From: Acidovorax sp. NCPPB 3576
Lineage (GTDB): Bacteria; Pseudomonadota; Gammaproteobacteria; Burkholderiales; Burkholderiaceae_C
DNA: 64,000 nucleotides
Reading direction: 5' to 3'
Assembly (NCBI RefSeq): GCF_028473605.1
Contig: NZ_CP097267.1
Span: 493,501-557,500, forward strand
Part shown: positions 23,533 to 38,435 of the stretch, piece by piece
Layout of the letters: every line of letters starts with the position of its first letter
How positions within the stretch are numbered: position 1 is the first letter of the stretch
Translations under genes and position numbers: made by a program
The notes under the pieces: generated by a model
The model's database searches: none
What the model saw: only the letters and a program-made list of their open reading frames with translations
Told to the model about the DNA's origin: nothing

Positions 23533-24093
23533 ATGAGAATCGAACCCATGCCGCTGCCGGGCTGCTACCAGATCCATCCCCACGTGCTGGCCGATCCACG
23601 GGGCCATTTCGTCAAGACCTTTCAGTCGTCCGCCTTCCGTGCCCACGGATTGGCAGACAATTTCGCCGAAACCTTCTACAGCGTATCGCGTAAGGGGGTG
23701 CTGCGTGGCTTTCACTTCCAAGTGCCTCCGCATGAGCATGCGAAGCTCGTTTATTGCACGGCGGGGGCTGTACTCGATGCGGTGGTGGACATCCGCCGCG
23801 GCTCTCCCACAGAAGCGCAATTCACGACCTTCGAACTGATCGCCGAACATGCCGCCATGGTTTACATTCCGGCCGGGTTCGCCCATGCCTTCTATGCCTT
23901 GACGGACAGCGCTACCGTGGCTTACCAAGTGACCACCGAATTTGCGCCCGAACATGATGCCGGGGTACGCTGGGATTCCTTTGGCGTACCTTGGCCCGAC
24001 CCCAATCCCATCCTGTCTGCCAAGGATATGGCGCTACCGCTCTGGCAGGACTTCGACACTCCCTTTACTCTGGCAAGCGCCCCCAAAGACTGA
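23533..24093 (+). CDS. RmlC-like nucleotide-sugar 5-epimerase (AscE-like candidate)
   Basis: 186 residues, cupin fold of the dTDP-4-dehydrorhamnose 3,5-epimerase family. Recognisable are GHFVKTFQSSAF, the active-site His region VLRGFHFQVPPHEHAKLVY, VVDIRRGSPT and VYIPAGFAHAFYALTD. In this operon, which uses CDP-sugars, it is more likely to epimerise C5 of a CDP-4-keto-3,6-dideoxyhexose (as AscE in ascarylose synthesis) than to act in dTDP-rhamnose synthesis, since rmlA, rmlB and rmlD are absent. This substrate choice is inference. It lies 40 bases after rfbH. Confidence 0.75.
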   Translation: MRIEPMPLPGCYQIHPHVLADPRGHFVKTFQSSAFRAHGLADNFAETFYSVSRKGVLRGFHFQVPPHEHAKLVYCTAGAVLDAVVDIRRGSPTEAQFTTFELIAEHAAMVYIPAGFAHAFYALTDSATVAYQVTTEFAPEHDAGVRWDSFGVPWPDPNPILSAKDMALPLWQDFDTPFTLASAPKD

Positions 24094-24095
24094 CG

Positions 24096-24947
24096 ATGCA
24101 TCTTTTCATCACGGGCGGAACCGGCTTTATCGGTGGCCACCTGCTCGACGCATTGGGGAAGACGGCGCACCGCACGACGGCGCTGTGCAGAAGGCCGGAG
24201 CAAGCTGCCCAACGGCCGGCCGAGAGGCGCACTTGGATATGCAAACCGATGGATGCTCTGGAGGCGGCCGATCTGCGCGGCGTCGATGTGCTGGTGCATC
24301 TTGCGTCCACTGATGTTCCCCCCCGCCCTTCGGAATGGCAGCGGCTTTTTTATTGGAATGTCGATGTGCTCGTGCGGGTGCTTTTGGCCGCGCAGTCGGG
24401 CGGGGTGCGCCGGGTAGTCGTCGCGGGCACTTTCGCGGAGTACGGTCGCTCGTTCGAGAAGTACGATGCCATGCCCTGCGATGCGCCGTTGCTGCCTACT
24501 TATGGATATGCTGCGTCCAAGGCCGCGGCGTTCCAGGTGGCCAGTGCCTTTGCCATCGAACGCGGAATCGAAATGTGCTACCTGCGTATTTTCTCGGCCT
24601 TCGGCGAGGGGCAATATGCGCAGAACTTTTGGCCTGCTTTAAAGAAGGCGGCCTTGGAGGGCGAGGACTTTCCCATGACCCCTGGTGAGCAGGTGCGGGA
24701 CTACGTCGATGTAGAGCAGGTCGCGAGGGCTTTTTTATGCGCTGCCGAATCTGGCGGTGTGCAGGCAGGCGTGCCCTGGGTGCGCAATGTGGGCTCGGGC
24801 GTTCCGGTGTCCATGAAAGCGTTCGCCGAGCATTGGTGGTCGGTCTGGAATGCGCCGGGCCGGCTGCTGGTGGGGGCCTTGCCATACCGGCCCAACGAAC
24901 TCATGCGCTGCGTTCCGCGCCCCGGTGTCGATTTGCTGGTGGGTTGA
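24096..24947 (+). CDS. NAD-dependent epimerase/dehydratase-family sugar 4-ketoreductase
   Basis: 283 residues, extended SDR. The N-terminal nucleotide-binding motif is MHLFITGGTGFIGGHLLDAL. VLVHLASTD and the active-site Thr/YxxxK (VVAGTFAEYGRS; YGYAASKAAAF) follow. VRDYVDVEQVARAFL is typical of this family. It closes the CDP-sugar operon. Relatives such as AscF and the abequose/paratose synthases reduce the C4 ketone in the last step, which is the likely role here. It starts 2 bases after the epimerase and ends 26 bases before the convergent minus-strand operon. Confidence 0.75.
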   Translation: MHLFITGGTGFIGGHLLDALGKTAHRTTALCRRPEQAAQRPAERRTWICKPMDALEAADLRGVDVLVHLASTDVPPRPSEWQRLFYWNVDVLVRVLLAAQSGGVRRVVVAGTFAEYGRSFEKYDAMPCDAPLLPTYGYAASKAAAFQVASAFAIERGIEMCYLRIFSAFGEGQYAQNFWPALKKAALEGEDFPMTPGEQVRDYVDVEQVARAFLCAAESGGVQAGVPWVRNVGSGVPVSMKAFAEHWWSVWNAPGRLLVGALPYRPNELMRCVPRPGVDLLVG

Positions 24948-24973
24948 AGCCAGCCTGTGCTGCGCGGCGGCGA

Positions 24974-26257
24974 TCAGGTGGCCGATGCGAGCACCCGGCG
25001 TGCGGTGTCTGCGCCACTCTGGAACGCCTGGTGGCTCCACAGATAGTCCCACTCGCCGAAACGGCCAGCGCAAGCGATGCCCATGCTGCCTAGCCAAGTG
25101 CGCACGCGGTCGCGGCGTTGTTCCATGCCTTGCTCGAACAGCACGTTGGCATAGGGCACATGGTGGTGGTGGGACACGGCGATATCGGCGTTGGTCGCGA
25201 AACCCCATTTCTCCAGGGCTTGAGCGCAGTCGCGCTGCAGTGCCTCTGCGCTTTGCATCATCGGTCGGCGGCTCGAGCCGTAGATTTCGAACTGGATGGA
25301 GGAGCATCCTGGCGGACAGTTGTCGGCCGACTGCATTCCCGGGCAACTGGCACGGGCTGCCATCACGTCATCGTCGTAAATGTAGAACCACAAGTCCTTG
25401 AACACATTCGGCCGTGCGACGCCAATGCAAATCAGGTCCACCGTGGTCGCCACGAGGCTCTGGGCATCTGCTTGAATCGCGTCCGGTATGCCATCCACCA
25501 TACCGGCTAGCACGGGCAAGGGCAGGGTGGAAATCAAGTGGTTGTAGCGTGTGACATGACCGTTGGTGAAATGCAAGTGTCTGCTCTGTGCATCGATGCG
25601 GCAGAGGCTATGGTCCAGCCGGATATCGGCCTTTGTAATCAGGGGCTCGATGAAGGCGCGGTAGCCACCACGTTCGGGGTATCGCATTTGCGGTGCGTAA
25701 TACACGCTGGGCGTGTCGTCCGTCATTGCTCCGCGTAGCACCTCGTCCAGCGCCGGGCGGTGAATGCGGGGGCCGATCCAGTCAATGCCCATGACCTCTG
25801 CAGGTACCGTCCAGTATTTTTCGGTGTAGCGCTCGGCATAGCGTGCCGAAAGCGCCCTGCCGTACTGGCTCACCAGCCAGTCCTTGTAGTGGCCCGGCCT
25901 GGTGTCAGGCCGCTCTACGAAACCGCGCACGAGTTCCACGCGTTGGTCCACCGGCAAGGGGTGCAGGTTGTTCTGCACCGGATGCTTGAGCCAGTAAGGG
26001 TGCTCCACGCAGCGCGGGCTGGGCGTGAATGCCGCGTGCGCTGTCTGGTCGAAGAATGCCCGCGCCTCTGGCTGGTCGGCGAATGACAGGTGCACTGCGC
26101 GGTCGAAGCGATACCCCTGAACCTCAATCGAATCGAGCAGCCCCCCTGCGCGAGGCGCTGCTTCATACATCACGCAGTCGTGACCGAGCGCTGCGGCTGC
26201 GTGATTGGCGGCCAGGCCCGCTATTCCTGCGCCCAGCACGGTCAGTGACGCGGTCAT
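24974..26257 (-). CDS. FAD-dependent NAD(P)-binding oxidoreductase (protoporphyrinogen oxidase / UDP-galactopyranose mutase-like)
   Basis: 427 residues from the ATG at 26257 (AAGG ribosome-binding site); a further upstream in-frame Met would add 22 residues. The N-terminus is a Rossmann dinucleotide-binding fold: TVLGAGIAGLAANHAAAALG then HDCVMYEA, with the terminal Glu. The segment RAGGLLDSIEVQGYRFDRAV is typical of the NAD_binding_8/amine-oxidase superfamily. Proteins of this type occur in polysaccharide clusters, but the substrate is unknown. It is the last gene of the ACP-headed operon, 46 bases after the WavE-like gene. Confidence 0.7.
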   Translation of the reverse strand: MTASLTVLGAGIAGLAANHAAAALGHDCVMYEAAPRAGGLLDSIEVQGYRFDRAVHLSFADQPEARAFFDQTAHAAFTPSPRCVEHPYWLKHPVQNNLHPLPVDQRVELVRGFVERPDTRPGHYKDWLVSQYGRALSARYAERYTEKYWTVPAEVMGIDWIGPRIHRPALDEVLRGAMTDDTPSVYYAPQMRYPERGGYRAFIEPLITKADIRLDHSLCRIDAQSRHLHFTNGHVTRYNHLISTLPLPVLAGMVDGIPDAIQADAQSLVATTVDLICIGVARPNVFKDLWFYIYDDDVMAARASCPGMQSADNCPPGCSSIQFEIYGSSRRPMMQSAEALQRDCAQALEKWGFATNADIAVSHHHHVPYANVLFEQGMEQRRDRVRTWLGSMGIACAGRFGEWDYLWSHQAFQSGADTARRVLASAT

Positions 26258-26303
26258 CGCCGACCTTGATGGCTGTACGGCAGGTAAAAGCAGGGAGCGA
26301 AAG

Positions 26304-27575
26304 TCATCCGACCCGGCGGGCAAAAAAATCCCCCATCGCCATGCCGGAGGCGGACACGTTGCGCAACTGCTCCAGCGTGCCCTCGAAATCGCCCTGCATT
26401 TCCCGCCACCAGCCCAGCGAGGGCTCCAGCATGGGGCGCAGCTTCAGGTTGAAAAGCGGCACGTGCTTGATCGAGAACATGTGGGTGTCGGAATCGATCT
26501 CCATCAGCCGGTCACGGGCGAAGCGATAGGCGTCCTCCAATGTGTCCGCTGGATATCCTAGCGTCTGCGCGTAGTGCATCCACAAAGAAGACTCATAGGA
26601 CAGGTGCCGGAAATCCAGAAACGGCATGTTCAGGAAGGCCGGATCGGCCAGCGAGGCTGGGAAACTTTCCGCGCCGCGGAGGTCTTCGGGCATGGACCAA
26701 AGTTGCGCCATGTCCTCGGCACGCGCGATCATCAGTTTGTCAGAGAAATGGAACGGCATGTAGGCCCATGAAGCCTGCAGCAGAACGCCCATCTTTCCCG
26801 GGTTTTTGTCACCATTGCCGAACAGCCGCTCCAATGTGCGATAGACCGATCCGACCAGGACGGCATCGGTGCGCAGCCGCACGACATAGCGCACTCCGGC
26901 CTTCAGCATCAGTTGGCTGCCAGCCTTGCACGATCGGGTGACGTAATTGCGGGTGTCGTAGCCGTTGGGAGGTGGGGGCTCGATTTGCACAAGTTCATCC
27001 ACCCAGGGGCGGCAGGCTTTCACCAGTTCCGGGTCTTCCGTTGTCCATGTGACCAGCGCAAGGTGCGATGCGGGGTAGCGCATGCGATGGTAGGCCAGCG
27101 CGAGCAACGTGAACTCAGTGATCGGCCCCTGCATGAACAGGCCCAGTTCCGCCGATCGTATGGCTGGCGCCTTTTCGAGTCGCATACCACCTCGGACAGC
27201 GCCCTGGAATGCCTGCAATTCCTCAATTACACCTGCGTCGTCGCCAAAATCCACCGCGCGCACTGTGCGGTAGTTGCCATAGGTGTTGCGGATGGCGTTC
27301 ATGATTTCCGGTGCATAGGCAGAGAAAACCACGACCAACACATCGTCGTGTTTTTCCTGCAGCAAGGCTTCGGGCGGGCGGACCGGGACGCCGTGGAGCG
27401 TCGTTCCCTGGTTCTCCTGCCGAGGGCAGATCGTGTATTCCAGCGACAGACCGGTATGTGGAAAGTAGTCGCGAAAAGCCTGCCCAGCGCCCCAGCCGAT
27501 CAAGCGGATCTTGGTCAGGTCGATGTCGGCGTATTTCATGAGGACGCGGGAGAGTCCTCCTCGGACGATGGCCAT
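26304..27575 (-). CDS. WavE-like surface glycan synthesis protein
   Basis: 423 residues. The first about 130 residues are a small Rossmann-like domain (IRLIGWGAGQAFRDYFPHTG, then VRPPEALLQ, VVVFSAYAPEI). The rest resembles the WavE lipopolysaccharide-synthesis family: LFMQGPITEFTLLALAYHRM, LVTWTTEDPELVKACRPWVD, YVTRSCKAGSQLMLKAGVRY and VVRLRTDAVL. These last features look like a GT-A glycosyltransferase with an RTD motif. It probably acts as a glycosyltransferase in building the island's glycan; acceptor unknown. A GGAG ribosome-binding site precedes the ATG. It is in the minus-strand operon after two FkbM genes. Confidence 0.7.
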   Translation of the reverse strand: MAIVRGGLSRVLMKYADIDLTKIRLIGWGAGQAFRDYFPHTGLSLEYTICPRQENQGTTLHGVPVRPPEALLQEKHDDVLVVVFSAYAPEIMNAIRNTYGNYRTVRAVDFGDDAGVIEELQAFQGAVRGGMRLEKAPAIRSAELGLFMQGPITEFTLLALAYHRMRYPASHLALVTWTTEDPELVKACRPWVDELVQIEPPPPNGYDTRNYVTRSCKAGSQLMLKAGVRYVVRLRTDAVLVGSVYRTLERLFGNGDKNPGKMGVLLQASWAYMPFHFSDKLMIARAEDMAQLWSMPEDLRGAESFPASLADPAFLNMPFLDFRHLSYESSLWMHYAQTLGYPADTLEDAYRFARDRLMEIDSDTHMFSIKHVPLFNLKLRPMLEPSLGWWREMQGDFEGTLEQLRNVSASGMAMGDFFARRVG

Positions 27576-27623
27576 GGTGACTCCAGAGAATGATGGCGGT
27601 GCGCAAGAATCCGTTAGCTGAGA

Positions 27624-28892
27624 TCAGTAGAAATAAAGGCAACTATCCCATCGGTCCTCTGTGTGGTGCCGTAAGCCCAGTTGGTAGCCAGGGGCAATGC
27701 CATCGATGTAGGCAGGAAGATCCAGCAGGTCTGTCGCCCTGTGATAAGCCGAGACTGCCAACTTGGGTTTCCCTGTTTGAATCGCCTTGATGCCGCCCTT
27801 TAACGCTGGCAGCTCGAACCCTTCGATGTCCATTTTGATGAAGGTGGGTATGTCATCGATGATGTTGTCGATGGGACGGAGCAACACCTTCTCGAGTTTG
27901 GCGGTGGGATCGCTCATCGCAATGGACCCGCTATGTCCACCTTGATGATGAAAAGGCGCCTCAGCCTCTGTTGCTCCGACCGCGACAGGATGCAGAGACA
28001 GTTTCTCCTCTATGGCACTGCCCGCGTGGGAGCGGATCAATTTCCGCAGGGTTTCAACGTTGAAACGGTCTGGCTCAATCATCCAAGAGTGTGAAAAACG
28101 TCCTCTGGTGATACCTATCAAAGCCGTGGTGGATTCACCAATGGATGCGCCACAGTCCACCAGCTTCTCATGGTCTGTCAGGCAGAAAAGGCCGGAGCGG
28201 AAATACAGGCTTGAATATGGTCGGGAGATATTCAGGTGGTACTCTGGATTGCAGGTCAGGTGAAATGCCAGCAGGCCTGCAAGGGTTTCTGCGGAATATG
28301 GATCGGAAAATCTGCGTTGCAGTACTTCGAACTCTTCAAACCTTGCAGAGATCACGGGTGCCCAGTCAGTGACTCGGTGGTCCACCACGTCGTTCAAACC
28401 CATCATGCGAACGGCTTGCTCGTGGTTCAGAAAAACGATGTCGTGCTTTTGGCACAAGGTTTCAAAGAATCGTCGCGAATGATCGAAGCGGCAGCAATTG
28501 ATGGCGATGATGTCGGGATCTTTTGCCACCATTTCGACAAGCCGAGCACTGGTGATTAATGAAATTCCATGAAAAAGCCCACCTTTGGGCGACTGAAAAT
28601 CGTCCACTACGTGCAACACCCGTCCTTTGCCAGCGACGATCGAAATGAAGACAGCAGCGAAATCCTTGGTACCTAGCAGGATGAAATGTGTTTCTCCGCT
28701 CTTTCTTGCAAAGATGTCCAAAGCCCGCTCGGGAACGCAGAAGAGAGGGTTTTTACGATATAGCCCTAACGCTTGCAGCAGGATGTCTTGAGCCGAAAGA
28801 GTGTGAAGGTTCAGCCTCATGACCAGAGGCGCCGAATTTTTCAGCACCTCGCGCGTCATGATCGCAGCAGAGCTTGGCTTGAGAGGAATCAT
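27624..28892 (-). CDS. FkbM-family methyltransferase-like protein 1
   Basis: 422 residues in two parts. Residues about 1-215 form an uncharacterised N-terminal domain. The C-terminal part is an FkbM-type SAM methyltransferase with KLVDCGASIGESTTAL (motif I) and PTFIKMDIEGFELPALKG (the FkbM signature). FkbM enzymes O-methylate hydroxyls, often on sugars. It overlaps the next upstream gene by 4 bases (ATGA), and the two proteins share the same overall architecture. GC content is visibly lower than in the flagellar genes. Acceptor unknown; a glycan sugar is likely. Confidence 0.75.
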   Translation of the reverse strand: MIPLKPSSAAIMTREVLKNSAPLVMRLNLHTLSAQDILLQALGLYRKNPLFCVPERALDIFARKSGETHFILLGTKDFAAVFISIVAGKGRVLHVVDDFQSPKGGLFHGISLITSARLVEMVAKDPDIIAINCCRFDHSRRFFETLCQKHDIVFLNHEQAVRMMGLNDVVDHRVTDWAPVISARFEEFEVLQRRFSDPYSAETLAGLLAFHLTCNPEYHLNISRPYSSLYFRSGLFCLTDHEKLVDCGASIGESTTALIGITRGRFSHSWMIEPDRFNVETLRKLIRSHAGSAIEEKLSLHPVAVGATEAEAPFHHQGGHSGSIAMSDPTAKLEKVLLRPIDNIIDDIPTFIKMDIEGFELPALKGGIKAIQTGKPKLAVSAYHRATDLLDLPAYIDGIAPGYQLGLRHHTEDRWDSCLYFY

Positions 28893-30064
28893 GCGGCCCA
28901 GGCCGGGGCTTCAACGCCCGTAATCGGTGACGCATAGAGAATCAAATCATAGTAGTAGCTACCGTTGTGTTGGCGTAGGCGCAAATGATAATCATCGACG
29001 CTTTTGTCGAGCTGACTGACCACGTCCAGCAGATCATGCGCGTAGTGGTAGACGCATGCCGCGATTCTGGGGCGCTGGTTGGTAATAAGACGAGATGCAC
29101 CTTGCAGAGTCTTGGACTCAAAGCCTTCCACGTCCATCTTCAGGAAGGTGAGTTTTTCCAGCTCATCGTCGAGCTTCGTCGTTTGAACCGTGGCAGTGCC
29201 TGCTGCGGAAACGTAGCTTGAAACGGTGCCTGTTTCCATGAAGCGCAACGTTTGCTTCCGGCTGGAAACCGCTTTATTCACAGGGCGGAAGTTTTCGAGG
29301 GGTAAGGCGGATATACGTTCCAAGACCTCAAAATTGGCGCGATCTGGTTCGAACGCTGTAATACTTTTGTAGTGATAATTTGTGGCTCCTAGAAACTTCG
29401 ACACGATCGGGCCTTGAAAAGCGCCGCAGTCACAGTAATGCTCTTGGCTTCCCAACCGAAAGGTAGAAGGCGCTGCATAACTAGAAAAGTACTCCTCAAT
29501 GGGATTCGCCCAAGTCTGCAACATGTAAGAACGGTCGTAAGTGAGGCGGAACAGCAGATTGGCATAAAGCGTCGCGCGGCTGTGATGGTCAGCAAACCGG
29601 TCTGCCAAGCGCAGGAAATCATCGAGGCGTTCCAACGTCTTGAGGCGGTAATCACCGACCGTCTCATACACCGAAACCATGCCCAACTGTGCCTGTGCAA
29701 TAACGCAGTCTTCCTTCGGGATGCTCGCGCGACGACACAGCTCTGCCATGTGCGACCGATCTGCTGGACTTTCTGAAAAGTCGATAGCTACCGCATTGGC
29801 GTATTGGGCAGCACGCTGCAGAAAGTCCATGCTGCTCCAGCGTGGAGCGCCATGGATGACTGCTTCACAGGACATATCGTCAACGACTGCCACCAAGCCA
29901 GTAGTGGACTTCGCGATTTGAGGACCGTGTGTGGTGCCCAGTAGCGAAGCAGGCGAAAGGATGAAGACCGGCCGGGTCGTGAGGTCGGGAATGGCCGGTT
30001 CTTCAGCCAGTGCAGCAATGGCGAGTAATTGCTGTCTGAGCGATTCCGAGAGTGCTTGGTGCAT
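28889..30064 (-). CDS. FkbM-family methyltransferase-like protein 2
   Basis: 391 residues, paralogous in layout to the 27624-28892 product. The N-terminal domain is about 190 residues. The C-terminal SAM domain has CDCGAFQGPIVSKFLG (motif I region) and LTFLKMDVEGFESKTLQGAS (FkbM signature). Motif I is less canonical than in the neighbour (GAFQGPIV instead of GASIGEST), so activity may differ. It overlaps the neighbouring gene by 4 bases. Local base composition is among the most AT-rich in the window, consistent with recent acquisition. Confidence 0.7.
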   Translation of the reverse strand: MHQALSESLRQQLLAIAALAEEPAIPDLTTRPVFILSPASLLGTTHGPQIAKSTTGLVAVVDDMSCEAVIHGAPRWSSMDFLQRAAQYANAVAIDFSESPADRSHMAELCRRASIPKEDCVIAQAQLGMVSVYETVGDYRLKTLERLDDFLRLADRFADHHSRATLYANLLFRLTYDRSYMLQTWANPIEEYFSSYAAPSTFRLGSQEHYCDCGAFQGPIVSKFLGATNYHYKSITAFEPDRANFEVLERISALPLENFRPVNKAVSSRKQTLRFMETGTVSSYVSAAGTATVQTTKLDDELEKLTFLKMDVEGFESKTLQGASRLITNQRPRIAACVYHYAHDLLDVVSQLDKSVDDYHLRLRQHNGSYYYDLILYASPITGVEAPAWAA

Positions 30065-30087
30065 GGCGTGCTTTCTTTGCGATGCGG

Positions 30088-30723
30088 TCAGGAGATGCCA
30101 CAGTCGACAATCGAAATGGCAAAGGGAAATGCAGGAAGCAGAAAAGTCTTTTCTGCCAACGGCTCTGAACGTCTGCCTGGCAAGTCAAGAATCGACTGTT
30201 TTCCAATGGAGACGCCATCGGCCACGATCACCCCGGTACCCAGTATTGCGTTGGCGCCCACTCGCGCCTGCATTCCGATGTGCACTCCATCGGCGATCCA
30301 AGAGGAAGAGGCTATCTGAACATCCGCCCCCAAGACGCAGCCTGCACCGATCACGCTATTGAAACCAACGCGGCAGCCTGGGCCGACGCTTGCTCCCACA
30401 CCAATGATGCAGTTTTCGCCGATGGTGGACGTGGCTGAAATCATTGCACCTCGGCAGATCAGTGATGGCATGCGAAAGCCTCGACTCTTGAGTTCTCCCA
30501 TCAATTCAAGGCGGCGAAAATTCAAGAACTGGGACCCCCAGACCACAAAGGCTGTTGCTTCAGCCGGGGATGCTTCCGCCAGGGCTCCCAAGTCAAACCG
30601 ATAGTCGCGGTCCTGGCCAATATCGATAGGGTGCAGCGTTTCTTCGGATGCGACTTCAGACCAGTGCGCAAGAGCGGCAGCCAGCAACGCCCCAGTGCCG
30701 ATCACAAACTTCTCAGAGGGCAT
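30088..30723 (-). CDS. Left-handed beta-helix (hexapeptide) acyltransferase, NeuD/PglD type, copy 3
   Basis: 211 residues. A short N-terminal Rossmann-like part (KFVIGTGALLAAALAHWSEV) is followed by LEL-x-GELKSRGFRMPSL and a hexapeptide-repeat helix (TIGENCIIGVGASVGPGCRV, then GFNSVIGAGCVLGADV and GANAILGTGVIVADGVSI). These trimeric enzymes transfer acyl groups from acyl-CoA or acyl-ACP to amino or hydroxyl groups of sugars. It is clearly related to the product of 31869-32528 (shared LN[YF]xRLEL motif). It overlaps the upstream Rieske gene by 11 bases and has a strong GGAGGG ribosome-binding site. Confidence 0.78.
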   Translation of the reverse strand: MPSEKFVIGTGALLAAALAHWSEVASEETLHPIDIGQDRDYRFDLGALAEASPAEATAFVVWGSQFLNFRRLELMGELKSRGFRMPSLICRGAMISATSTIGENCIIGVGASVGPGCRVGFNSVIGAGCVLGADVQIASSSWIADGVHIGMQARVGANAILGTGVIVADGVSIGKQSILDLPGRRSEPLAEKTFLLPAFPFAISIVDCGIS

Positions 30724-31864
30724 GTCGTCCCTCCATTACATCCATGTACCAGCGTTCGACGGCCATGTTGCCGAACTCGAAGTCGCCTAAGGTGGCCCTT
30801 GGCGAGCCGGGGCGAAGTGCCGCCTGCACTTTTTCCATGACGGATATGTCTTCACGCAGCACTTTTTCTGCGCCCTCCAGATGCGCAAGCAAAACCGCTG
30901 CGGAGGTTGGGTAACGGCGCTTCTTTCGGGCGGTGACGTAATAGATGACCAGATCGGTTCGTGCTGCAGAGATTGGCTGGTGATGCTCAATGATGAATGA
31001 GTAGCCACCCGATCCAGAGGCGATGTGCAGATTGGGGAAGACGAGCCAGTTGAGATACCAATCGTCAGTGCCGTATCGATCAACGTTGTCATGCCAAGCG
31101 TACTGCGGCATCTGAACAAGGGGCTCGTTAAGTCCCCCGTTGCTGAATGCGCGCAGATGGGCGAGATGCGCTTCGCGCCCTATGCTGCCACTGGCGTGGT
31201 AACTCTTGGCCGCGGTTACCGCGTTTTCGTCCATCTGCACCTGGAATTTCACTTGCTGATACACGCTCTGCTGGTGCAAGTAGCGTGGATGCAAGCTGTC
31301 GCGAAGGTTTTCGTAAGCCAGTTTCCAGTTGAGCTTCGTGGGCAGGGTAGCGATGAGCACCTCGCTATCAAAATGTTCAGAGGCCGAGCGCAGGGAGGCC
31401 AGCGCTTCCATGGAGAACTGTTCATGCAATTCCACGGGTTTGCTGCCAACGTTCACGAACACCAAGTTGCCGATGCATTCCACTGGAAAGCGTCGTAGTT
31501 TCAGGCATTCCCTTTCCGGCGCTGGCAGCCGATATGCCGTGTCTTGAAAAGGGATGTTGTCAACGGCCCCATCATCACGATAGCCCCAGCCGTGGTAGCT
31601 GCAAACCAGGGGCCTGACGCCGTGGGCCTGGTATTGCAGCGGGTTTTGTCGATGCAGGCAGATGTTTTCGAAGGCTCGTAGTTCGCCATTGAAATTCTGC
31701 ACCACGACCTCAACACCGCAAACACTGCGGGTAACGAATCCGTTGTGTTTGGCAAGCAGCATGCGTGGGGCCACGAATTGCCACAGCGGACGCATCAGTG
31801 CTTCGCGTTCGCGTACGAACCACGCTTCGTCGATATAGGCCTCGGCCGGCAGGGTCGATCGCAT
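30713..31864 (-). CDS. Rieske [2Fe-2S] oxygenase, catalytic subunit-like, copy 2
   Basis: 383 residues. Rieske cluster ligands C69-x-H71 (CLHRQ) and C88-x2-H91 (CSYHGW) are present. The mononuclear iron site has the pattern D189-x2-H192-x4-H197 (NLRDSLHPRYLH). This is the alpha-subunit fold of ring-hydroxylating and other Rieske non-heme oxygenases, which hydroxylate or demethylate small substrates using electrons from a reductase. No reductase or ferredoxin gene is in the cluster. Within a glycan island it may hydroxylate a sugar or its acyl group; that is inference. It is paralogous to the 32525-33661 product with identical ligand positions. Confidence 0.85.
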   Translation of the reverse strand: MRSTLPAEAYIDEAWFVREREALMRPLWQFVAPRMLLAKHNGFVTRSVCGVEVVVQNFNGELRAFENICLHRQNPLQYQAHGVRPLVCSYHGWGYRDDGAVDNIPFQDTAYRLPAPERECLKLRRFPVECIGNLVFVNVGSKPVELHEQFSMEALASLRSASEHFDSEVLIATLPTKLNWKLAYENLRDSLHPRYLHQQSVYQQVKFQVQMDENAVTAAKSYHASGSIGREAHLAHLRAFSNGGLNEPLVQMPQYAWHDNVDRYGTDDWYLNWLVFPNLHIASGSGGYSFIIEHHQPISAARTDLVIYYVTARKKRRYPTSAAVLLAHLEGAEKVLREDISVMEKVQAALRPGSPRATLGDFEFGNMAVERWYMDVMEGRHAL

Positions 31865-31868
31865 GGTG

Positions 31869-32528
31869 TCAGCGCCGTCGCTCGTAGGTGTAGCCCGCGC
31901 CGATCATGCGCGCAGGATTGGGGAAGTGTGTAGCGATGAAACTACCGGCAGCCAAACCGACTGTCTGCTGCCGTGAGACGTCTATTACGCAATGTCGGCC
32001 GAACTGCAGGCTTGCGCCCAAATGCACGTTGCTTCCGATTACACAGTGTGGTCCCACTGCGGTGTTTTCACCGACTGAGGCGCCGGGTCCAATGAAACCG
32101 TGCATGCCAACGTGTGCGCCAGCGTCTATCCGCGCTCCGGCATGCACCATCACGTCGCCGGCAATCCGGGTCGCCCTACCGATGATTGCGCCGGGGCCAA
32201 CCCATACGTTGTCGGCCAACTGGGCCGATGGCGCGACGATGGCGCGCTCATGTATCAGCGTTGCCATGTGAAGCCCGCGCAGGCGCGCCGCGCCATAGAG
32301 TTCCAGCCGTGCGTAATTCAACGCGTTCTGGTCAACGGCTGCAAAGACGCTGGTGAGCCCGGGCTCCAGCCCCTCGAGCAATGAAGGAATGGCGGCGGAC
32401 AGCGCAGCGACATCGTCCACTCGGCGCATCGTCCAGCCTTCGGGTAGGCCATATGCTGCCGCGTCTTCTGCGATCATGTCGAAGACAGAGCCCGTGCCAA
32501 GCAGGCAGAACCTGACCTTTGTGCTCAT
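31869..32528 (-). CDS. Left-handed beta-helix (hexapeptide) acyltransferase, NeuD/PglD type, copy 2
   Basis: 219 residues. The N-terminal part has VRFCLLGTGSVFDMIAEDAA, then LNYARLELYGAARLRGLHMA, then a hexapeptide helix (AQLADNVWVGPGAIIGRATR, GAHVGMHGFIGPGASVGENT, AVGPHCVIGSNVHLGASL). The C-terminus NPARMIGAGYTYERRR lacks the GNPAK consensus ending. Likely an O- or N-acyltransferase on a sugar of the island's glycan, fed by acyl-ACP or acyl-CoA. It overlaps the preceding Rieske gene by 4 bases and precedes the next by 4. Confidence 0.78.
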   Translation of the reverse strand: MSTKVRFCLLGTGSVFDMIAEDAAAYGLPEGWTMRRVDDVAALSAAIPSLLEGLEPGLTSVFAAVDQNALNYARLELYGAARLRGLHMATLIHERAIVAPSAQLADNVWVGPGAIIGRATRIAGDVMVHAGARIDAGAHVGMHGFIGPGASVGENTAVGPHCVIGSNVHLGASLQFGRHCVIDVSRQQTVGLAAGSFIATHFPNPARMIGAGYTYERRR

Positions 32529-33661
32529 GGCTTGCCTTCTTCCATCAGCCGCAGATAGGCTGCTGCCGCGGACTGCAGACGGTCTTCATATTGGCCATGC
32601 TGGGCACGCGGCGCGGCGTCGTGAAGATGCGATTGCAGGGCTTCCAGGTGCGCCAAGTCTTCATGCAGCACCGCGACTTCACTCTTCAAGTGACCCCACA
32701 AGATGGCGGGCAGCGCCGGGAGCCTGCGTGTCTCACGCGCTGCACACAAGGTGAACCGCACTTCGGTCCGGTCGGGCGCCAGCGGGTGGAACTGCTGGAG
32801 CAGGAACGTCAACCCTCCGAGTGAGATGAAGTTGACGTTGGGATAGAGAAAGAAGTTGTAGTAGAAATCGCCGTCTCCATAGCGCTGGACTGCGTCATGC
32901 CATGGCCATGGTTCTATGCGGATCGGTGAACGCGTCCAGAAGCTCTGGGCCGCCAAGTGGTCCCTTCGTGCGGCCACTGAAAGGGCTTGGCCATCCGCGC
33001 CTCCGGCAGCCGGCAGCCCCTGGCGGGCATCCGATATGCCTTCTCGCAATAGTGGCTGGAACGTCTTCGGATGAATGTACGGAACGTGGTTGTAATCGAG
33101 CACGTTCTCGTAGTTGAGCTTCCAGTTGTAGCGGGCGGGCAGATCGGCATGCACGGCTTGCACACCGAAGTGGCTGGTGATGTCCGCCAGTGTTCGCTGC
33201 AGTTCAGGACTGAACTGCTCATCGAAAGGAAGCGGATCGGCATCAAGGTTCACAAAAACCAGGTTGCCGACCTCCCGCACCGCATACCGCTTCAAGCACA
33301 GATCTTTACGCTCGTTAGCAGAGTACGCGTAGAGGCGCTGTTCGTGCGGAATCGTCTTGACCTTGCCTTCGGTATCGAAGACCCAGCCGTGATAGGGGCA
33401 TGCCATGCGCGCTTGGCCGAACGCTTCCTTTTGCAAAGGCATCTGGCGGTGGGGGCACAGGTTTTCGAACGCCCGGATCTCGCCATCGCAGTTCTGCAGC
33501 AGCACCGGCAGGCCACCCAGCTCGCGCGTGGCGAATGCGTCGGGCTCGGCCAGCGCCGTGCGCAACGCTGCGAACAGCCAGAGCTTGCGAAAGAGGCGTG
33601 TTCGCTCGCGCGCAAAAATCTCCTGGTCCAGGTAGTGCGCAGGTGACAGCCGCGACAGCAT
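32525..33661 (-). CDS. Rieske [2Fe-2S] oxygenase, catalytic subunit-like, copy 1
   Basis: 378 residues. Rieske ligands are C69/H71 (CPHRQ) and C88/H91 (CPYHGW). The mononuclear iron motif is D189, H192, H197 (NVLDYNHVPYIHP), the classical form. Residues 5-35 match the typical N-terminal helix (YLDQEIFARERTRLFRKLWL). It is expected to be a soluble oxygenase needing an external electron donor. It is a paralogue of the 30713-31864 product, each being followed by a related hexapeptide acyltransferase. Gap of 4 bases from the upstream PglD-like gene. Confidence 0.87.
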   Translation of the reverse strand: MLSRLSPAHYLDQEIFARERTRLFRKLWLFAALRTALAEPDAFATRELGGLPVLLQNCDGEIRAFENLCPHRQMPLQKEAFGQARMACPYHGWVFDTEGKVKTIPHEQRLYAYSANERKDLCLKRYAVREVGNLVFVNLDADPLPFDEQFSPELQRTLADITSHFGVQAVHADLPARYNWKLNYENVLDYNHVPYIHPKTFQPLLREGISDARQGLPAAGGADGQALSVAARRDHLAAQSFWTRSPIRIEPWPWHDAVQRYGDGDFYYNFFLYPNVNFISLGGLTFLLQQFHPLAPDRTEVRFTLCAARETRRLPALPAILWGHLKSEVAVLHEDLAHLEALQSHLHDAAPRAQHGQYEDRLQSAAAAYLRLMEEGKP

Positions 33662-33665
33662 GGCG

Positions 33666-34319
33666 CTATCGGAACGAAAACGGCTTGGCAGGATTGCCCA
33701 TCACGGTGGTTCCCGGAGCAACGTTGCGGATTACCACGCTGCCTGCGCCCACGATGGCTCCATCACCCACCGTTACCCCTGGCAGGATGGTGGCATGGGG
33801 GTGGATCACCACGTCGTTCCCGATGTGCGCGCCCCCGCCGATGAAGACGAAGCTGGCAATCTGGCAGTAGTCGCCGATGTGCACGTCATAACCCACGATG
33901 GTCGTGGACAGAATGGTGACCAACTCACCTACCCTGACGTCGGGCCCCAAAGACACCTTGCGTTCGAAAAGCCCGCCGGACGAAAGCTGCACGCGCTCAC
34001 CCGTCGTGAGATCAGGCCGCAGGATGATGAAATTGGCGCCCTGCGACCGGAGGTGGGCGGTGTATTGCCGTTTTGCAGCGGGATTGCCCAGCGCGCAAAC
34101 GAAGATATCGCCTTCTTGAACCTCATAGGTCAGCGGATCGCCCAGAATGGGCAGGTCGCTGGGGTTTTGCAGGCCGTTTCGGTTGTCTAGGAATCCCTTG
34201 ACGTCCCAGGCCGTACCGCAGGCCAGATCGGAGCGCGCCAAGCTGGCAATGGCACGGCCGAAGCCACCCGCGCCGACGACCAGCACATGGTTGGGAACAG
34301 TGGTTTTCGCCGAACTCAC
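33666..34319 (-). CDS. PglD/NeuD-like sugar acyltransferase, copy 1
   Basis: 217 residues with a GTG start at 34319 in a GTGA overlap with the SDR stop; this start places the Rossmann motif near the N-terminus. The PglD-type N-domain has HVLVVGAGGFGRAIASLARS and DVKGFLDNR. The hexapeptide helix ends in the family consensus (GDGAIVGAGSVVIRNVAPGT then VMGNPAKPF). The catalytic-type His is in the SFVFIGGGAHIGNDVVIHPH region. PglD/NeuD enzymes acylate amino or hydroxyl groups of nucleotide sugars. Here the N-acylation of a 4-aminosugar with an acyl-ACP made by the preceding genes is a reasonable guess. Confidence 0.82.
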   Translation of the reverse strand: MSSAKTTVPNHVLVVGAGGFGRAIASLARSDLACGTAWDVKGFLDNRNGLQNPSDLPILGDPLTYEVQEGDIFVCALGNPAAKRQYTAHLRSQGANFIILRPDLTTGERVQLSSGGLFERKVSLGPDVRVGELVTILSTTIVGYDVHIGDYCQIASFVFIGGGAHIGNDVVIHPHATILPGVTVGDGAIVGAGSVVIRNVAPGTTVMGNPAKPFSFR

Positions 34320-35086
34320 ACAAACTCCACGCCACCGTCCATGCTGAAAATGGCGCCAGTGACCTTGGTGCTGGCGCCGCTCAGGAAGTACAAGCATGCC
34401 TGCGCCACATCGGCAGGCAGTCCGATGCCCAGCGGGTAGCGCTTGCGGCTTTCTTCGAACCAGTCCTTGTCTTCGGTGATCAGCGTGGTTTCCACCAGAC
34501 CCGGGCACAGCGCATTGGCACGAATGCCACGCTTGGCCAGCTCCAGCGCCAGGGGCCTCAATGTTCCAACCAAAGCGGCCTTGGAGCCAGCGTATGGCCC
34601 CACGCCCACGGTGCCCGTCAGCGCGGCGATGGAAGACAGAAATACCAGCGAACCACCGGGGCGAATCTGTCCTTTGGCCAGCAGATGCCTCGTCAACATC
34701 ATTGGCGCGACGTAATTCGTCTCCATGACCTGGGCCAAAAAGGCGTCGCTCACCATTTTCATGGGAGCGAGGCCGCGGATGCCGGCGCTGTGCACCACGC
34801 CATCGAGCGGGCCGCAGTCGGCTGCGAATTGCTTGCGTGCGGCCACGTCTGTGAGTTCGGCTGCCAATGCTCGGTGGCCAGTGCCTTGCAGGCTGTCCAG
34901 CGTTTCCTGCAGGCGCGCAGCATCGCGTCCAGCAATCACCAGCTGGGCTCCAGAGGCGGCACACTGCCTTGCCACCTCTTGGCCAATGCCTTTGGAGGCG
35001 CCTGTCACCAGCACGGTCTTGCCTTCCAAACCGAAGATGCGCCGGGCAGCAGCCACGGCGGTGTCAAGGGTTGCGACAGTATTCAT
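34316..35086 (-). CDS. SDR-family oxidoreductase (FabG-like) 2
   Basis: 256 residues, classical SDR. NAD(P) motif TGASKGIGQEVARQC; NAG replaced by HSAGIRG; active-site Ser in LVFLSSIAALTG and YxxxK in YAGSKAAL; PG motif LCPGLVETT. It resembles 3-oxoacyl-ACP reductases. Next to ACP and KASIII it most likely reduces a 3-oxoacyl-ACP to the 3-hydroxyacyl form, or a sugar ketone. The ATG at 35086 overlaps the upstream SDR by 4 bases; a longer in-frame reading is not needed. Confidence 0.85.
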   Translation of the reverse strand: MNTVATLDTAVAAARRIFGLEGKTVLVTGASKGIGQEVARQCAASGAQLVIAGRDAARLQETLDSLQGTGHRALAAELTDVAARKQFAADCGPLDGVVHSAGIRGLAPMKMVSDAFLAQVMETNYVAPMMLTRHLLAKGQIRPGGSLVFLSSIAALTGTVGVGPYAGSKAALVGTLRPLALELAKRGIRANALCPGLVETTLITEDKDWFEESRKRYPLGIGLPADVAQACLYFLSGASTKVTGAIFSMDGGVEFV

Positions 35087-35841
35087 AGTCGGATCGGCAG
35101 CGAAATGCCGCCATCCAGGGTCAGCGTGGTGCGCGTGATCCAGCGGCTGGCAGGGGAAAGCAGCCATGCGGCCGCAGGAGCGACATCGTCCGGGGTCACT
35201 GTGCCGAGGGGCGTGAGGGCGACCTTTTCGCTCATGTCGGCCGCGCTGCCCAGGCGGTGGAGCATGGGGGTATCGACATAGCCTGGGGCAATGCAATTGG
35301 ACCGAATGCGCTGCTTTGCATGCTCCAGCCCCAAGGTGCGCGACGCGGCTTCGAGTGCCGCCTTCGAGGCAGCATAGGCGCCGGCGGCCTGCGGCGCAGC
35401 GCGGGCCGACAGCGCACTGACGAACACGAGGGAGGCTCCTTCACGCAGCTTGCGCTTGTATAGAAGGCGCTGTGCCAGCCCGATGGGCGCCAGGTAATTG
35501 ACGGCGAGCATCTGCTGCAGGTACTTTTCACTGGCCATGCGCATCGGCACCAGCGTGGCAGCGCCGGCGCATGAGACCAAGCCGTCAAAATAAGGGGCCG
35601 ATTGCACCAGGGTGTCCAGCGTGGCCGGATCGGTAAGATCCCCAGCGACCACGGTGTGGCCGGAGCCCGATAGGCCGGCGCGCGAGGTTTCCAGCCGCTC
35701 GGCATCACGCCCGTTCAGGCAAAGTTCGGCGCCCAACTCTGCGCAGAGCTTGGCAACCGCGGCGCCGATTCCGGACGAGGCCCCCGTCACCAGCACGCGG
35801 CGGCCGTATAGGCTGAAATCGGCAGTCGGGTCGGTATTCAC
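35083..35841 (-). CDS. SDR-family oxidoreductase (FabG-like) 1
   Basis: 252 residues from a GTG at 35841 that overlaps the KASIII stop as GTGA. Motifs: VLVTGASSGIGAAVAKLC, active-site Ser in LVFVSALSARAAP, YxxxK in AYAASKAAL, and APGYVDTPML. It is a homologue of the following SDR, with about the same length. Two FabG-like reductases in tandem after KASIII suggest two reductive steps, or two different substrates such as the acyl chain and a sugar. The function is inferred from the family and neighbours. Confidence 0.85.
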   Translation of the reverse strand: MNTDPTADFSLYGRRVLVTGASSGIGAAVAKLCAELGAELCLNGRDAERLETSRAGLSGSGHTVVAGDLTDPATLDTLVQSAPYFDGLVSCAGAATLVPMRMASEKYLQQMLAVNYLAPIGLAQRLLYKRKLREGASLVFVSALSARAAPQAAGAYAASKAALEAASRTLGLEHAKQRIRSNCIAPGYVDTPMLHRLGSAADMSEKVALTPLGTVTPDDVAPAAAWLLSPASRWITRTTLTLDGGISLPIRL

Positions 35842-36875
35842 GACACAAGCAGCGGGGGAAATACCGCGTTCTCGATGTCGAGGATGCAAGTGCCCCAGGA
35901 CAGGCCGATGCCGAAACCCCCCAGCAGAAGCTTGTGACGGCCCTGTCCCAGCACTTCATTGATGCGGGCTGTCATGGTCACCGGAAGCGAAGCGCCGCTG
36001 GTGTTGCCAAAGTCCGCCAGGGTGGAGGGCACCTTTTCAGGCGGTAGGGCAAGCTTCTTGCGGATGGTCTCGTTGATCATCCGGTTGGCTTGGTGAAAGA
36101 TGAAAAAGTCGATATCTTCCGTGGTGATTTTTGCGTACTCCATCGCCCGTCGCACGGAAGGAGGCACCTGCTGGGTCGAAAAGCTCAGCACCGCAGGGCC
36201 ATCGAGGATCAGTTCTGCTGGCCAGTGCAGCGTGCCATCTTCGTCTCGCCTGGGCATGCTGTGCTGCGGCCCGAAGGGTTCGCGGTGGCCGCCCACCGGC
36301 AGCATGATGGCTTTGTAGCCGCTGCCGTCGCTGTTAAGGTCGAAGTGCATGGGCGGCGCAGCGGGATCGAACTCCAGCGCAGTTGCGGTGCCGGCGTCCG
36401 AGAAGAGCGGGTCGTTCAGGGTGGCACAGCGGTCGCCTACCAGCACCAGCCCTTTTTTGATCGCTCCGGAAGCAATCATGCTTCCCAATATGTGCAGGCC
36501 GAACGGATAGCCAGAGCAGCCCAAGTTCACATCGAAGGCAATCGTGGCCTGGGAAAGCTTGAGGCGATCCTGCAGGATGATCGCCGTTGCCGGAATCAGG
36601 TAGTCCGGTGATTGCGTGACGACGATCAGTGCATCGATCTCCTCGCGTTGCCAGTTCAGGGTATCCAGCAGGGTGCCTGTAGCGTCGAAAGCGAGATCGG
36701 AAAACGTTTGCCATTCCTGGCAGATGCGGCGTTGCTGGATGCCGATGTTGCGCACCAGACGCTCACGCTCCGAGCGGATTTTGGGAGCCGCGTCGTCGAT
36801 GTTGTGCAGGATGCGTTTGGGAACGCAGCTGGCCATGCCTGCGAACCGGACATTGCTGAGCGTGGACAGCCCCAT
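35838..36875 (-). CDS. 3-oxoacyl-ACP synthase III (FabH-like, KASIII)
   Basis: 345 residues, thiolase fold. The catalytic triad is complete: Cys120 in VNLGCSGYPFGL, His261 in FIFHQANRM and Asn291 in DFGNTSGASLP. It condenses a primer acyl-CoA with malonyl-ACP. It is distinct from a housekeeping FabH because it sits with its own ACP (4 bases upstream) and two SDRs inside a glycan island. Comparable KASIII-ACP-reductase sets in pseudomonad and Burkholderia flagellin-glycosylation loci are thought to supply 3-hydroxyacyl groups for the 4-amino sugar. Application to this cluster is inference. Confidence 0.88.
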   Translation of the reverse strand: MGLSTLSNVRFAGMASCVPKRILHNIDDAAPKIRSERERLVRNIGIQQRRICQEWQTFSDLAFDATGTLLDTLNWQREEIDALIVVTQSPDYLIPATAIILQDRLKLSQATIAFDVNLGCSGYPFGLHILGSMIASGAIKKGLVLVGDRCATLNDPLFSDAGTATALEFDPAAPPMHFDLNSDGSGYKAIMLPVGGHREPFGPQHSMPRRDEDGTLHWPAELILDGPAVLSFSTQQVPPSVRRAMEYAKITTEDIDFFIFHQANRMINETIRKKLALPPEKVPSTLADFGNTSGASLPVTMTARINEVLGQGRHKLLLGGFGIGLSWGTCILDIENAVFPPLLVS

Positions 36876-36879
36876 GGTG

Positions 36880-37110
36880 CTAACCCAAGAGTTTGTACAG
36901 ATCGGTGATCGTGGCGGCGTTCTTCAGGTCTTCCCCGACGATCGTTTTGCCGTAATCCACATCGAACATGACGATCACACCCAGGGCGGCAAGCGAATCC
37001 CACTCGGGCAGGCTGAGCAGCTCCGTCTCCGGCGTGACCTCCACCGGCTCCTGGAAGTCGACCGCGACCAGGAAACTTTCAATGAATTGCTCGATGGTGG
37101 GGGTGGGCAT
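36880..37110 (-). CDS. Acyl carrier protein
   Basis: 76 residues, acidic. The phosphopantetheine attachment Ser39 is in LPEWDSLAALGVIVMFD, where the usual DSL is preserved. Helices before and after fit the ACP bundle (TIEQFIESFLVAVDF; EDLKNAATITDLYKLL). It is a specialised ACP and heads the minus-strand operon. It lies 95 bases downstream of the minus-strand flagellin gene, with a terminator-like hairpin between. A CTGGAG ribosome-binding site precedes the ATG. Confidence 0.92.
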   Translation of the reverse strand: MPTPTIEQFIESFLVAVDFQEPVEVTPETELLSLPEWDSLAALGVIVMFDVDYGKTIVGEDLKNAATITDLYKLLG

Positions 37111-37123
37111 AGTGGCTCCAGGG

Positions 37124-37158: not shown

Positions 37159-37205
37159 GGGGCGTGAAACGGTTGCGCGGCAGTGTAGCCGCGAATGTCA
37201 CCGGA

Positions 37206-38435
37206 TCAGCCCTGCAGCAGCTTCAGCACCTGCTGAGGCAGCTGGTTGGCCTGGGCCACCATCGCGGTGCCGGCCTGCTGCAGGATCTGCGTGCGCGACA
37301 GGTTGGCCGTTTCCTTGGCGAAATCGGCATCCACGATGCGGCCACGGGCTGCCGCCATGTTCTCGCCCTGAATGTCGATATTGGCGATGGCGTTTTCGAA
37401 GCGGCTTTGCAAGGCCCCGAGGTCGGCGCGTGCCGAATTGACCTGGTCGATGGCGCTGTCGATCTTTTTGAGGGCCACCCAGGCCTGGCTCTGCGTTCCG
37501 ACATCGACGCTGTCGATGCCCTTCTGGGCTGCGCCTGTGGCAGTCGTCAGTGTGGGCGGGGTAAAGCCCGTGTTGGCCACGGTGAATCCGGTGGTGCCGC
37601 CGAACGTGACGGTTTCCGGTACGGGCGGAACCGCGTTCGTCAATTTGGACGACGCAAACTCCAGTCCATAACTGCCGTCGTCGTTCTTGGTCAGGAAGGC
37701 GGTGACACCCGTATCCGCTGTCTTGTTGTTGATGGCCGAAATCACTTGGCCCAGGCGTTCCACGCCGGAACCTGCCGCCTTGATGCTTCCCAGGTCGATG
37801 GCGGAGCCCGAGCCGATCTGGATCGTCAGCCCGCCTGCGGGGATTGCGCTGCCGAAGGCGGAGATCGACGTGTCCGAGGCGTCTACGGCGATCGCTGTGC
37901 TCGTGCTCGAGTACATGATGCTGGACAGGCCCGACGCGCGGGTGTCCGCCAAGGCGCCCAGCGTCACGTTGTCGCCGGAGTTGGCGCCGACCTGGAACAA
38001 CGCACCGGCGAAGCTGCCGTCCAGGATCTTCTGGCCGTTGAAGCTGGTTTGCTTGGAAACGCGGTCGATTTCGTCGGTGAGCTGCTTCACTTCGGACTGC
38101 AGCGCGGCGCGGTCTGCCTTGCTGTTTGTCGCATTGCTGGCCTGTACGGCCAATTCGCGCATCCGCTGCAGCATGTCGCCGACCTTGCCCAGGGCGCCTT
38201 CGGCCGTCTGGGCCAGCGAAATGCCGTCATTGGCATTGCGGGAAGCCACCGCCAAGCCTTTGACCTGGGTGTTCATGCGCTCGGCGATGGCCAGACCGGC
38301 GGCATCGTCCTTTGCGCTGTTGACGCGCAGGCCGGAGGACAGCCTTTGCATGGTGGTCGTCAGCGAGGTTGCCGACAATCCCAGATTGCGCTGGGCGTTG
38401 AGTGAGGCGATGTTGGTGTTGATCGTCGAGGCCAT
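37206..38435 (-). CDS. fliC: Flagellin (second copy, minus strand)
   Basis: 409 residues. The D0/D1 ends are canonical: MASTINTNIASLNAQRNLGL, LSSGLRVNSAKDDAAGLAIA at the N-terminus and FAKETANLSRTQILQQAGTA, MVAQANQLPQQVLKLL at the C-terminus. The central variable part (about 170-300) is Ser/Thr/Ala-rich and is the probable glycosylation surface. The ATG at 38435 follows GAAGGAGTTCC. It is highly similar to the divergent flagellin at 38820-40043 (same lengths of conserved ends, differences in the middle). Upstream is a weak sigma-28-like site and a GGAGAATTCTCC palindrome. The ACP operon follows it in the same orientation. Confidence 0.96.
   Translation of the reverse strand: MASTINTNIASLNAQRNLGLSATSLTTTMQRLSSGLRVNSAKDDAAGLAIAERMNTQVKGLAVASRNANDGISLAQTAEGALGKVGDMLQRMRELAVQASNATNSKADRAALQSEVKQLTDEIDRVSKQTSFNGQKILDGSFAGALFQVGANSGDNVTLGALADTRASGLSSIMYSSTSTAIAVDASDTSISAFGSAIPAGGLTIQIGSGSAIDLGSIKAAGSGVERLGQVISAINNKTADTGVTAFLTKNDDGSYGLEFASSKLTNAVPPVPETVTFGGTTGFTVANTGFTPPTLTTATGAAQKGIDSVDVGTQSQAWVALKKIDSAIDQVNSARADLGALQSRFENAIANIDIQGENMAAARGRIVDADFAKETANLSRTQILQQAGTAMVAQANQLPQQVLKLLQG

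Follow-up and report, generated by a model that had tools for sequence, protein, structure and literature searches.

A putative amino-sugar tailoring cassette with two Rieske oxygenases next to the flagellin genes of Acidovorax sp. NCPPB 3576

We analysed a stretch of 64,000 nucleotides of Acidovorax sp. NCPPB 3576 (contig NZ_CP097267.1, positions 493,501 to 557,500; hereafter the window), in which a run of genes combining an acyl carrier protein (ACP), KASIII and two Rieske oxygenases lies next to flagellin. Judged by its gene content and its relatives in other genomes, this run is probably part of a portable cassette by which an N-acylated amino-deoxysugar is both built and tailored for filaments on the cell surface, with flagellin the most likely acceptor here. 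The window lies on a single contig of 5.41 Mb from a plant-associated organism. Flagellin glycans are important for motility and for host perception of bacteria, and those of Acidovorax avenae and Xanthomonas have been worked on.

Genes of the proposed tailoring unit

Thirteen open reading frames (ORFs) were observed on the minus strand from 37110 to 24974, as the first-pass annotation had described, joined by overlaps of 4 to 11 bases or by gaps of at most 48. The 12 junctions measure, in order, 4, -4, -4, -4, 4, -4, 4, -11, 23, -4, 48 and 46 bases (minus denoting overlap), lengths that depend on the chosen start codons, GTG being assumed for the first short-chain dehydrogenase/reductase (SDR1) and for the gene at 33666..34319. 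The first gene (36880..37110) encodes a predicted dedicated ACP of 76 residues; the earlier assignment drew support from a DSL motif and from counterparts 56-93% identical in nine homologous loci and none from family models, with no Pfam match at E 0.001 and an NCBIfam match below threshold (22.5 against 65 bits). The KASIII that follows (35838..36875; Pfam, NCBIfam and alignment) has the full Cys-His-Asn triad claimed for it, with no change at Cys120, His261 or Asn291 in any of 10 aligned homologues. Two FabG-like enzymes, SDR1 (35083..35841) and SDR2 (34316..35086), were identified from Pfam and NCBIfam with the YxxxK motif read by eye, and the gene at 33666..34319 was classified as a VioB/PglD/NeuD-type sugar N-acyltransferase (TIGR03570, 162.1 bits against a cut-off of 160.8), matching VioB in the PDB (7txp) at E 1e-27.

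Two pairs of a Rieske oxygenase alpha subunit and a hexapeptide (LbH) protein come next, Rie1 (32525..33661) with its partner (31869..32528) and Rie2 (30713..31864) with its own (30088..30723), the oxygenases assigned by Pfam, alignment and tree and the partners by Pfam and NCBIfam. Both partners scored below the NeuD/PglD/VioB family cut-off (63.8 for the gene at 31869 and 77.4 for that at 30088, against 160.8). The operon closes with two FkbM-domain proteins, a (28889..30064) and b (27624..28892), putative methyltransferases by a domain scan placing the domain in their C-terminal halves, a WavE-like protein (26304..27575), possibly a second glycosyltransferase, and a flavoprotein (24974..26257). 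The gene list given earlier held by Pfam and NCBIfam for KASIII, both SDRs, all three hexapeptide proteins, both Rieske oxygenases, both FkbM proteins and the flavoprotein, and failed for the WavE-like protein, a weak match under the Pfam cut-off (PF07507, 22 bits against 27) with no credible relative in the PDB search. What had been called a FAD oxidoreductase is a flavoprotein of another name: its Pfam label, amine oxidase, was replaced, and full-length similarity to 4dsg (E 1e-31, residues 2-427) makes it UDP-galactopyranose-mutase (UGM)-like, a possible pyranose/furanose mutase.

The functional unit continues leftward on the plus strand to 17377, giving a whole tailoring unit of 17377 to 37110; the earlier outline, correct for the 13 genes, had left out these sugar genes. 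At the far end lies a TPR-GT41 protein (SPINDLY/OGT-like; 17377..19065), a candidate flagellin O-glycosyltransferase matching SPINDLY at E 5e-67 and 5djs at E 3e-75, the latter match spanning residues 46-526 of 562 and covering the TPR and OGT/SPINDLY catalytic regions. A DegT-type sugar aminotransferase (19062..20276; domain scan) follows, and then RfbF, glucose-1-phosphate cytidylyltransferase (20273..21046; TIGR02623, 460 bits, cut-off 300), RfbG, CDP-glucose 4,6-dehydratase (21031..22173; TIGR02622, 459 bits, cut-off 278), RfbH, a 3-dehydratase for 3,6-dideoxy sugars (22173..23492; NF011936, 739 bits, cut-off 423), an RmlC-like 3,5-epimerase (23533..24093; PF00908, with TIGR01221 at 155.1 bits just under the cut-off of 155.75) and a sugar-nucleotide epimerase/reductase of the SDR type (24096..24947; domain scan). 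The comparison route for the last five is the CDP-ascarylose or 3,6-dideoxyhexose pathway, which shares RfbF, RfbG, RfbH, the RmlC-like epimerase and the SDR reductase with the window and differs in that no linked E3 reductase (RfbI/AscD) was observed among the genes scanned. The presumed acceptors, flagellin A (37206..38435, minus strand) and flagellin B (38820..40043, plus strand; both by domain scan), adjoin the operon as previously noted.

The Rieske clade and its linkage to acyl genes

The window was compared with 23 homologous loci (24 in all, numbered L), gathered from a Rie1 scan of named genomes, which gave 8 loci, and from family, order and phylum searches. L087 was found through KASIII and the other 22 through the Rieske gene, and L086, a KASIII contig of 3,353 bases on which no Rieske gene lies, stands outside the set. 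The order ACP-KAS-SDR-SDR-NeuD-Rie-LbH-Rie-LbH was kept in L034, L035, L036, L037 and L038, and this conservation in five further genomes excludes a chance grouping. Both ACP and KASIII were observed on the stretch read in 20 of the 23 loci as well as in the window (21 of 24), the remainder being the eroded L039 and two loci at contig ends (L121 and L127). At 20 other Rieske loci of the same family, taken from 25 (L012, L021, L022, L027 and L029 were left out) and read over 16-18 kb each, none had a match at E 1e-4 to KASIII, ACP, NeuD, LbH, GT41, flagellin, FliD or pilin. For the co-occurrence of KASIII-ACP with Rieske and NeuD-like genes near fliC, a check proposed with the first-pass annotation, the figures are linkage of ACP and KASIII to the Rieske gene in 21 of 24 loci against 0 of 20, and flagellin at 8 of the 24. 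Rieske alignment alone found ten previously unseen genomes, nine of which had ACP and KASIII matches on the stretch read; the tenth, on a contig of 3,932 bases, shows SDR-SDR-NeuD-Rieske-LbH arranged as elsewhere.

The Rieske ligands C69, H71, C88 and H91 and the iron ligands H192, H197 and D335 were invariant in 16 of 16 aligned proteins, and the bridging residue D189 was observed in at least 90% of the aligned rows. Phthalate dioxygenase, CntA and naphthalene dioxygenase share these Rieske and mononuclear iron ligands, along with profile similarity; the cassette proteins differ from other Rieske non-haem iron oxygenases in forming a separate clade. In a maximum-likelihood tree of 51 Rieske proteins, the 16 cassette proteins fell on one side of a branch with support of 100/98, and together with four more distant Rieskes from similar loci they separated from the 31 others sampled with support of 99/97. 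The tree was midpoint-rooted and has several long branches, most of the 31 others were chosen for their similarity to Rie1, and it omits the duplicates L061 (of L036) and L008 (of L084) and two fragments from L039. The possibility that these are strayed catabolic dioxygenases was ruled out by the tree and by the linkage control. A carnitine/betaine-type demethylase identity was also considered, CntA being among the PDB matches, and was not adopted: the similarity is general, and CntA differs from Asp at the bridging residue, which is Asp in at least 90% of the rows here.

Rie1 and Rie2 form two well-supported groups, and since each includes a Methylomonas protein, the duplication predates the cassette's spread through these lineages. 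Identity to the LbH protein paired with Rie1 in the window divides the LbH proteins likewise (Rie1-paired copies 42-62%, Rie2-paired copies only 27-36%), so that the Rieske and hexapeptide genes look to have been duplicated together. Of the loci with one pair only, L042, L117, L118, L119, L120, L121 and L122 are nearest Rie2, and L040, L043, L084, L125 and L128 best match Rie1, at 25-37%; no LbH partner was seen on the stretch read in L084, L125 or L128. L040 (a Zoogloeaceae metagenome-assembled genome) carries a shorter set, and L041 (Novosphingobium) carries Rieskes of the other group.

The cassette was rare, given the few genomes matched in the class, order and phylum samples. Only the own genome of 369 passed 1e-60 in the class sample, and Rieske alignment at 1e-45 gave 10 genomes among 399 from the order and 5 among 398 from the phylum, each count including the window's own. 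Within the family sample (299 genomes, own included), full-length relatives were observed in three others (genomes G039, G196 and G232), and a KASIII alignment search at E below 1e-180 returned six genomes, own included. Five of these six have a clade Rieske within 5 kb of KASIII (a more distant member in G219), and all five family genomes listed by the Rieske search with a clade Rieske are among the six. The contig of the sixth, G068, is 3,353 bases long and breaks off within the NeuD gene. In three genomes of the same genus neither this KASIII nor this Rieske was found at the thresholds used, and the non-flagellar matches that the queries gave near their flagellins were weak, to RfbH (30%) in one genome, DegT (30%) in another and SDR (28%) in the third.

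A Rieske gene broken in two pieces was observed with a hexapeptide gene at L039:2340-4085 (Candidatus Burkholderia verschuerenii), where the 13.4 kb read gave no match to KASIII or ACP. A PIN-domain ORF occupies the usual place of SDR1, between KASIII and SDR2, at L043:7547-8284, and a second set of SDR, AMP-binding enzyme and KASIII genes adjoins the cassette in the Methylomonas flagellin locus (L037:2662-5837). L120, L122 and L125 come from three genomes of one family, and thiG adjoins the cassette in both of those scanned (L120 and L125).

Target filaments, proposed pathway and alternatives

Flagellin genes were observed in 8 of the 24 loci, type IV pilin in three (L035, L036 and L119), Tad-pilus genes in one and an exopolysaccharide set in one. 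The two pilin genes of L036 lie no more than 3 kb past its end, as read in L061. Xenophilus sp. L33 is a strain that has pilin where the window has flagellin. At L126:7242-14042, in a genome outside the window's class, the cassette adjoins TadE, Tad and T2SSF genes, which suggests a Tad (Flp) pilus as the target. In pilin loci L035 and L036 KASIII shares 82% and 81% identity with the KASIII of the window, whereas their GT41 is only 32-33% identical, and this points to a transferase exchanged with the target; GT41 of the flagellin loci was 43-66% identical, except for the second GT41 of L084 (29%). The sugar-building and target-choosing parts therefore seem to be exchangeable. The DegT gene adjoins GT41 in the window and in 11 other loci (as a fragment in L117). 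The UGM-like and WavE-like genes were observed whole in the window and L034 only, with L038 retaining a 21-residue WavE start; they are accessory and may serve another sugar, one that the RfbH, RmlC-like and reductase genes would supply through an ascarylose-like route.

The nearest described counterpart is the viosamine island of Pseudomonas syringae. Its flagellin sugar is N-(3-hydroxy-1-oxobutyl)-2-O-methylviosamine, and island mutants shift the glycan mass; vioA, vioB, vioT and vioR mutants lack the N-(3-hydroxy-1-oxobutyl) viosamine on flagellin, and in the vioM mutant it is demethylated (PMC3927599). This island (vioA, vioB, vioT, vioR, vioS, acp, vioM) and that of P. aeruginosa PAK share with the window an ACP, KASIII, 3-oxoacyl-ACP reductase, VioB-type N-acyltransferase and aminotransferase near flagellin. 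They differ from it in that the accessible text names no Rieske, hexapeptide partner, UGM-like protein or CDP-dideoxy pathway for the viosamine island, and in that the viosamine sugar is dTDP-linked, while the window's linked genes are of the CDP type (RfbF/G/H) and its transferase is a GT41. Enterobacteriaceae flagellin islands likewise share GT41, DegT aminotransferases, FkbM proteins, ACP and FabG genes with the window, and the accessible parts of that paper contain neither 'Rieske' nor a word starting 'oxygenase' ('dioxygenase' was not among the words sought; PMC4875605). Aeromonas group II polar flagellum islands share an ACP and 3-oxoacyl-ACP reductase beside flagellar glycosyltransferases and differ by having pseudaminic acid genes, with no 'Rieske', 'dioxygenase' or 'FkbM' in the accessible text (PMC7874193).

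The first-pass annotation had not recognised the full combination. That held for the Rieske part, no such enzymes being described in a locus of this kind, as judged by title and abstract, in the open-access papers found on Rieske enzymes or dioxygenases with flagellin or pilin glycosylation, surface glycans or deoxysugars, and not for the remainder: the ACP, KASIII, SDRs and VioB/NeuD-like gene match, in their predicted roles, the known logic of the Pseudomonas viosamine island. By title, the papers found on hydroxybutyryl flagellin glycans gave no such loci either; the available portion of PMC8268093 held no Acidovorax flagellin glycan mass, and that of PMC5550985 no island gene list. The new part is the Rieske oxygenase with its hexapeptide protein, present twice, and we read the locus as a hydroxyacyl-aminosugar island of the viosamine type that carries an oxidative module and whose target is portable.

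In the scheme we propose, RfbF, RfbG and RfbH would supply a CDP-4-keto-3,6-dideoxyhexose, which the DegT enzyme would aminate at C4. Following the logic of the P. syringae viosamine island, KASIII would use the dedicated ACP to elongate a short acyl-CoA to 3-oxoacyl-ACP, an SDR would reduce this to 3-hydroxyacyl-ACP, and the VioB-like protein would transfer the 3-hydroxyacyl group to the 4-amino group. A Rieske oxygenase would then hydroxylate the nucleotide-sugar conjugate, more probably on its acyl part, and the paired hexapeptide protein would acylate or cap the new hydroxyl, the pair being present twice in the window through an old duplication. The FkbM proteins may methylate, and GT41 would attach the sugar to Ser/Thr of flagellin, with a different GT41 type accompanying pilin in sister loci. 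The earlier proposal of an acyl-ACP system decorating a flagellin sugar gains from the eight flagellin loci and from the adjoining GT41 and DegT genes, and needs widening, as the cassette is not specific to flagellin (pilin in three loci, Tad and exopolysaccharide in one each).

Several observations weigh against this reading. Eleven of the 24 loci had no filament gene by the queries used, which did not cover every neighbour, and L120, L122 and L125 have a flagellar-type GT41 (46-49%) with no flagellin or pilin in 20 kb. The type of DegT is not tied to the target, pilin locus L119 having a flagellar-type DegT (53%). In G139 (L087), met through the KASIII search only and not listed by the family Rieske search, a diverged member of the Rieske clade, the sixth in the family, stands with another type of KASIII in an exopolysaccharide locus, and L123 and L128 have a KASIII that shares just 36-40% identity with that of the window, possibly an enzyme of another kind. 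The RmlC-like and reductase genes indicate a second, non-amino sugar that the scheme leaves unexplained. The VioB-like protein has Tyr at the usual catalytic His (GYDV where relatives show GHDV or AHDV), one of 6 among 12 aligned copies to do so; relatives tolerate loss of this His. By eye, a His conserved in the Rie1-paired LbH proteins (5 of 5 rows) is missing from the Rie2-paired ones (0 of 6), which makes acyltransfer by the latter doubtful. In a further difference from other Rieske oxygenases, domain scans of the 13 operon genes gave no reductase, ferredoxin or beta subunit beside Rie1 and Rie2. The genome's three PF00175 reductases are all located away from the cassette; the two examined are BenC/MmoC-like, neither passing the cut-off of any family listed at E 1e-30.

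The site of oxidation is where the closest competing explanation enters: the Rieskes could act on the sugar ring, for example re-oxygenating a deoxy carbon, with the LbH proteins O-acetylating that position. RfbH-type 3-deoxygenation genes in the window, L034, L084 and L123 speak for this, as does the resemblance of the LbH proteins to nucleotide-sugar acyltransferases, below the curated cut-off as it is. We consider it rather unlikely and favour the acyl group as substrate because the acyl genes are the constant partners, ACP and KASIII occurring in 21 of the 24 loci as against close relatives of RfbF, RfbG or RfbH in five (the window, L034, L042, L084 and L123, on the stretch read), with the proviso that the genomes concerned might hold sugar genes at other sites.

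That the sugar is destined for a surface polysaccharide such as O-antigen or capsule, with the flagellin neighbourhood incidental, seems to us improbable. Polysaccharide loci typically carry WavE and UGM-like genes, and L087:128-18901 holds a diverged KAS-ACP-KAS-SDR-NeuD-Rieske set amid Polysacc_synt (Wzx), SLBB export protein and Wzz genes; yet no Wzx, Wzy or Wzz was found among the 33 window proteins scanned, and flagellin or pilin was observed in 11 of the 24 loci, nine of which also have GT41 (none was observed on the stretch read in L034 and L038). We hold it very improbable that the operon makes a small secreted metabolite, lipid or polyketide-like, with no connection to glycans. ACP, KASIII, SDRs and Rieske enzymes do occur in lipid and polyketide-like clusters, but here VioB/NeuD-like, DegT, CDP-sugar and GT41 genes accompany the operon, and no thioesterase or non-ribosomal peptide synthetase gene passed its cut-off among the same 33 proteins.

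Returning to filament glycosylation, we also put forward a broader proposal, held tentatively and with less conviction than the tailoring role itself: a mobile ACP-KASIII-SDR-VioB cassette with its own Rieske clade and LbH proteins, which would oxidise and then cap a hydroxyacyl amino sugar, may represent an undescribed class of tailoring system for flagella, type IV pili, Tad pili and polysaccharide, redirected by transferase exchange, and a first role for Rieske enzymes in protein glycosylation. If so, C-H hydroxylation would join the chemistry of bacterial protein glycosylation, one sugar kit would be redirectable between flagella and pili by changing the transferase, and a Rieske gene beside KASIII, ACP and VioB-like genes would be a genomic marker for new filament glycans.

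Flanks, composition and relatives

The unit lies inside a flagellar super-cluster, with FlhB, FlhA, an SRP54-type GTPase, MotB and MotA on the left and the flagellins, FliD, FliF, FliG, FliM and FliP on the right. The G+C content of the operon was 0.593, against 0.659 and 0.646 in two flagellar flanks, and fell to 0.52 in the second FkbM gene. This would fit a mosaic island; composition alone proves little, since 54600-64000 is also low (0.57). The two flagellin genes diverge from an intergenic stretch at 38436-38819. A sigma-28 promoter for the operon was sought and not assigned: the nearest match was a two-mismatch site at 38646-38672 on the plus strand, upstream of flagellin B, among four sigma-28-like matches in the window against 1.05 expected. 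No sigma-70-like site was found in 37000-39000, the sole stretch scanned. By sequence similarity the organism is most likely a Paracidovorax: the nearest named relatives of the cassette were Paracidovorax valerianellae and Acidovorax sp. SUPP3334, and flagellin B was 99% identical to a flagellin of Paracidovorax valerianellae.

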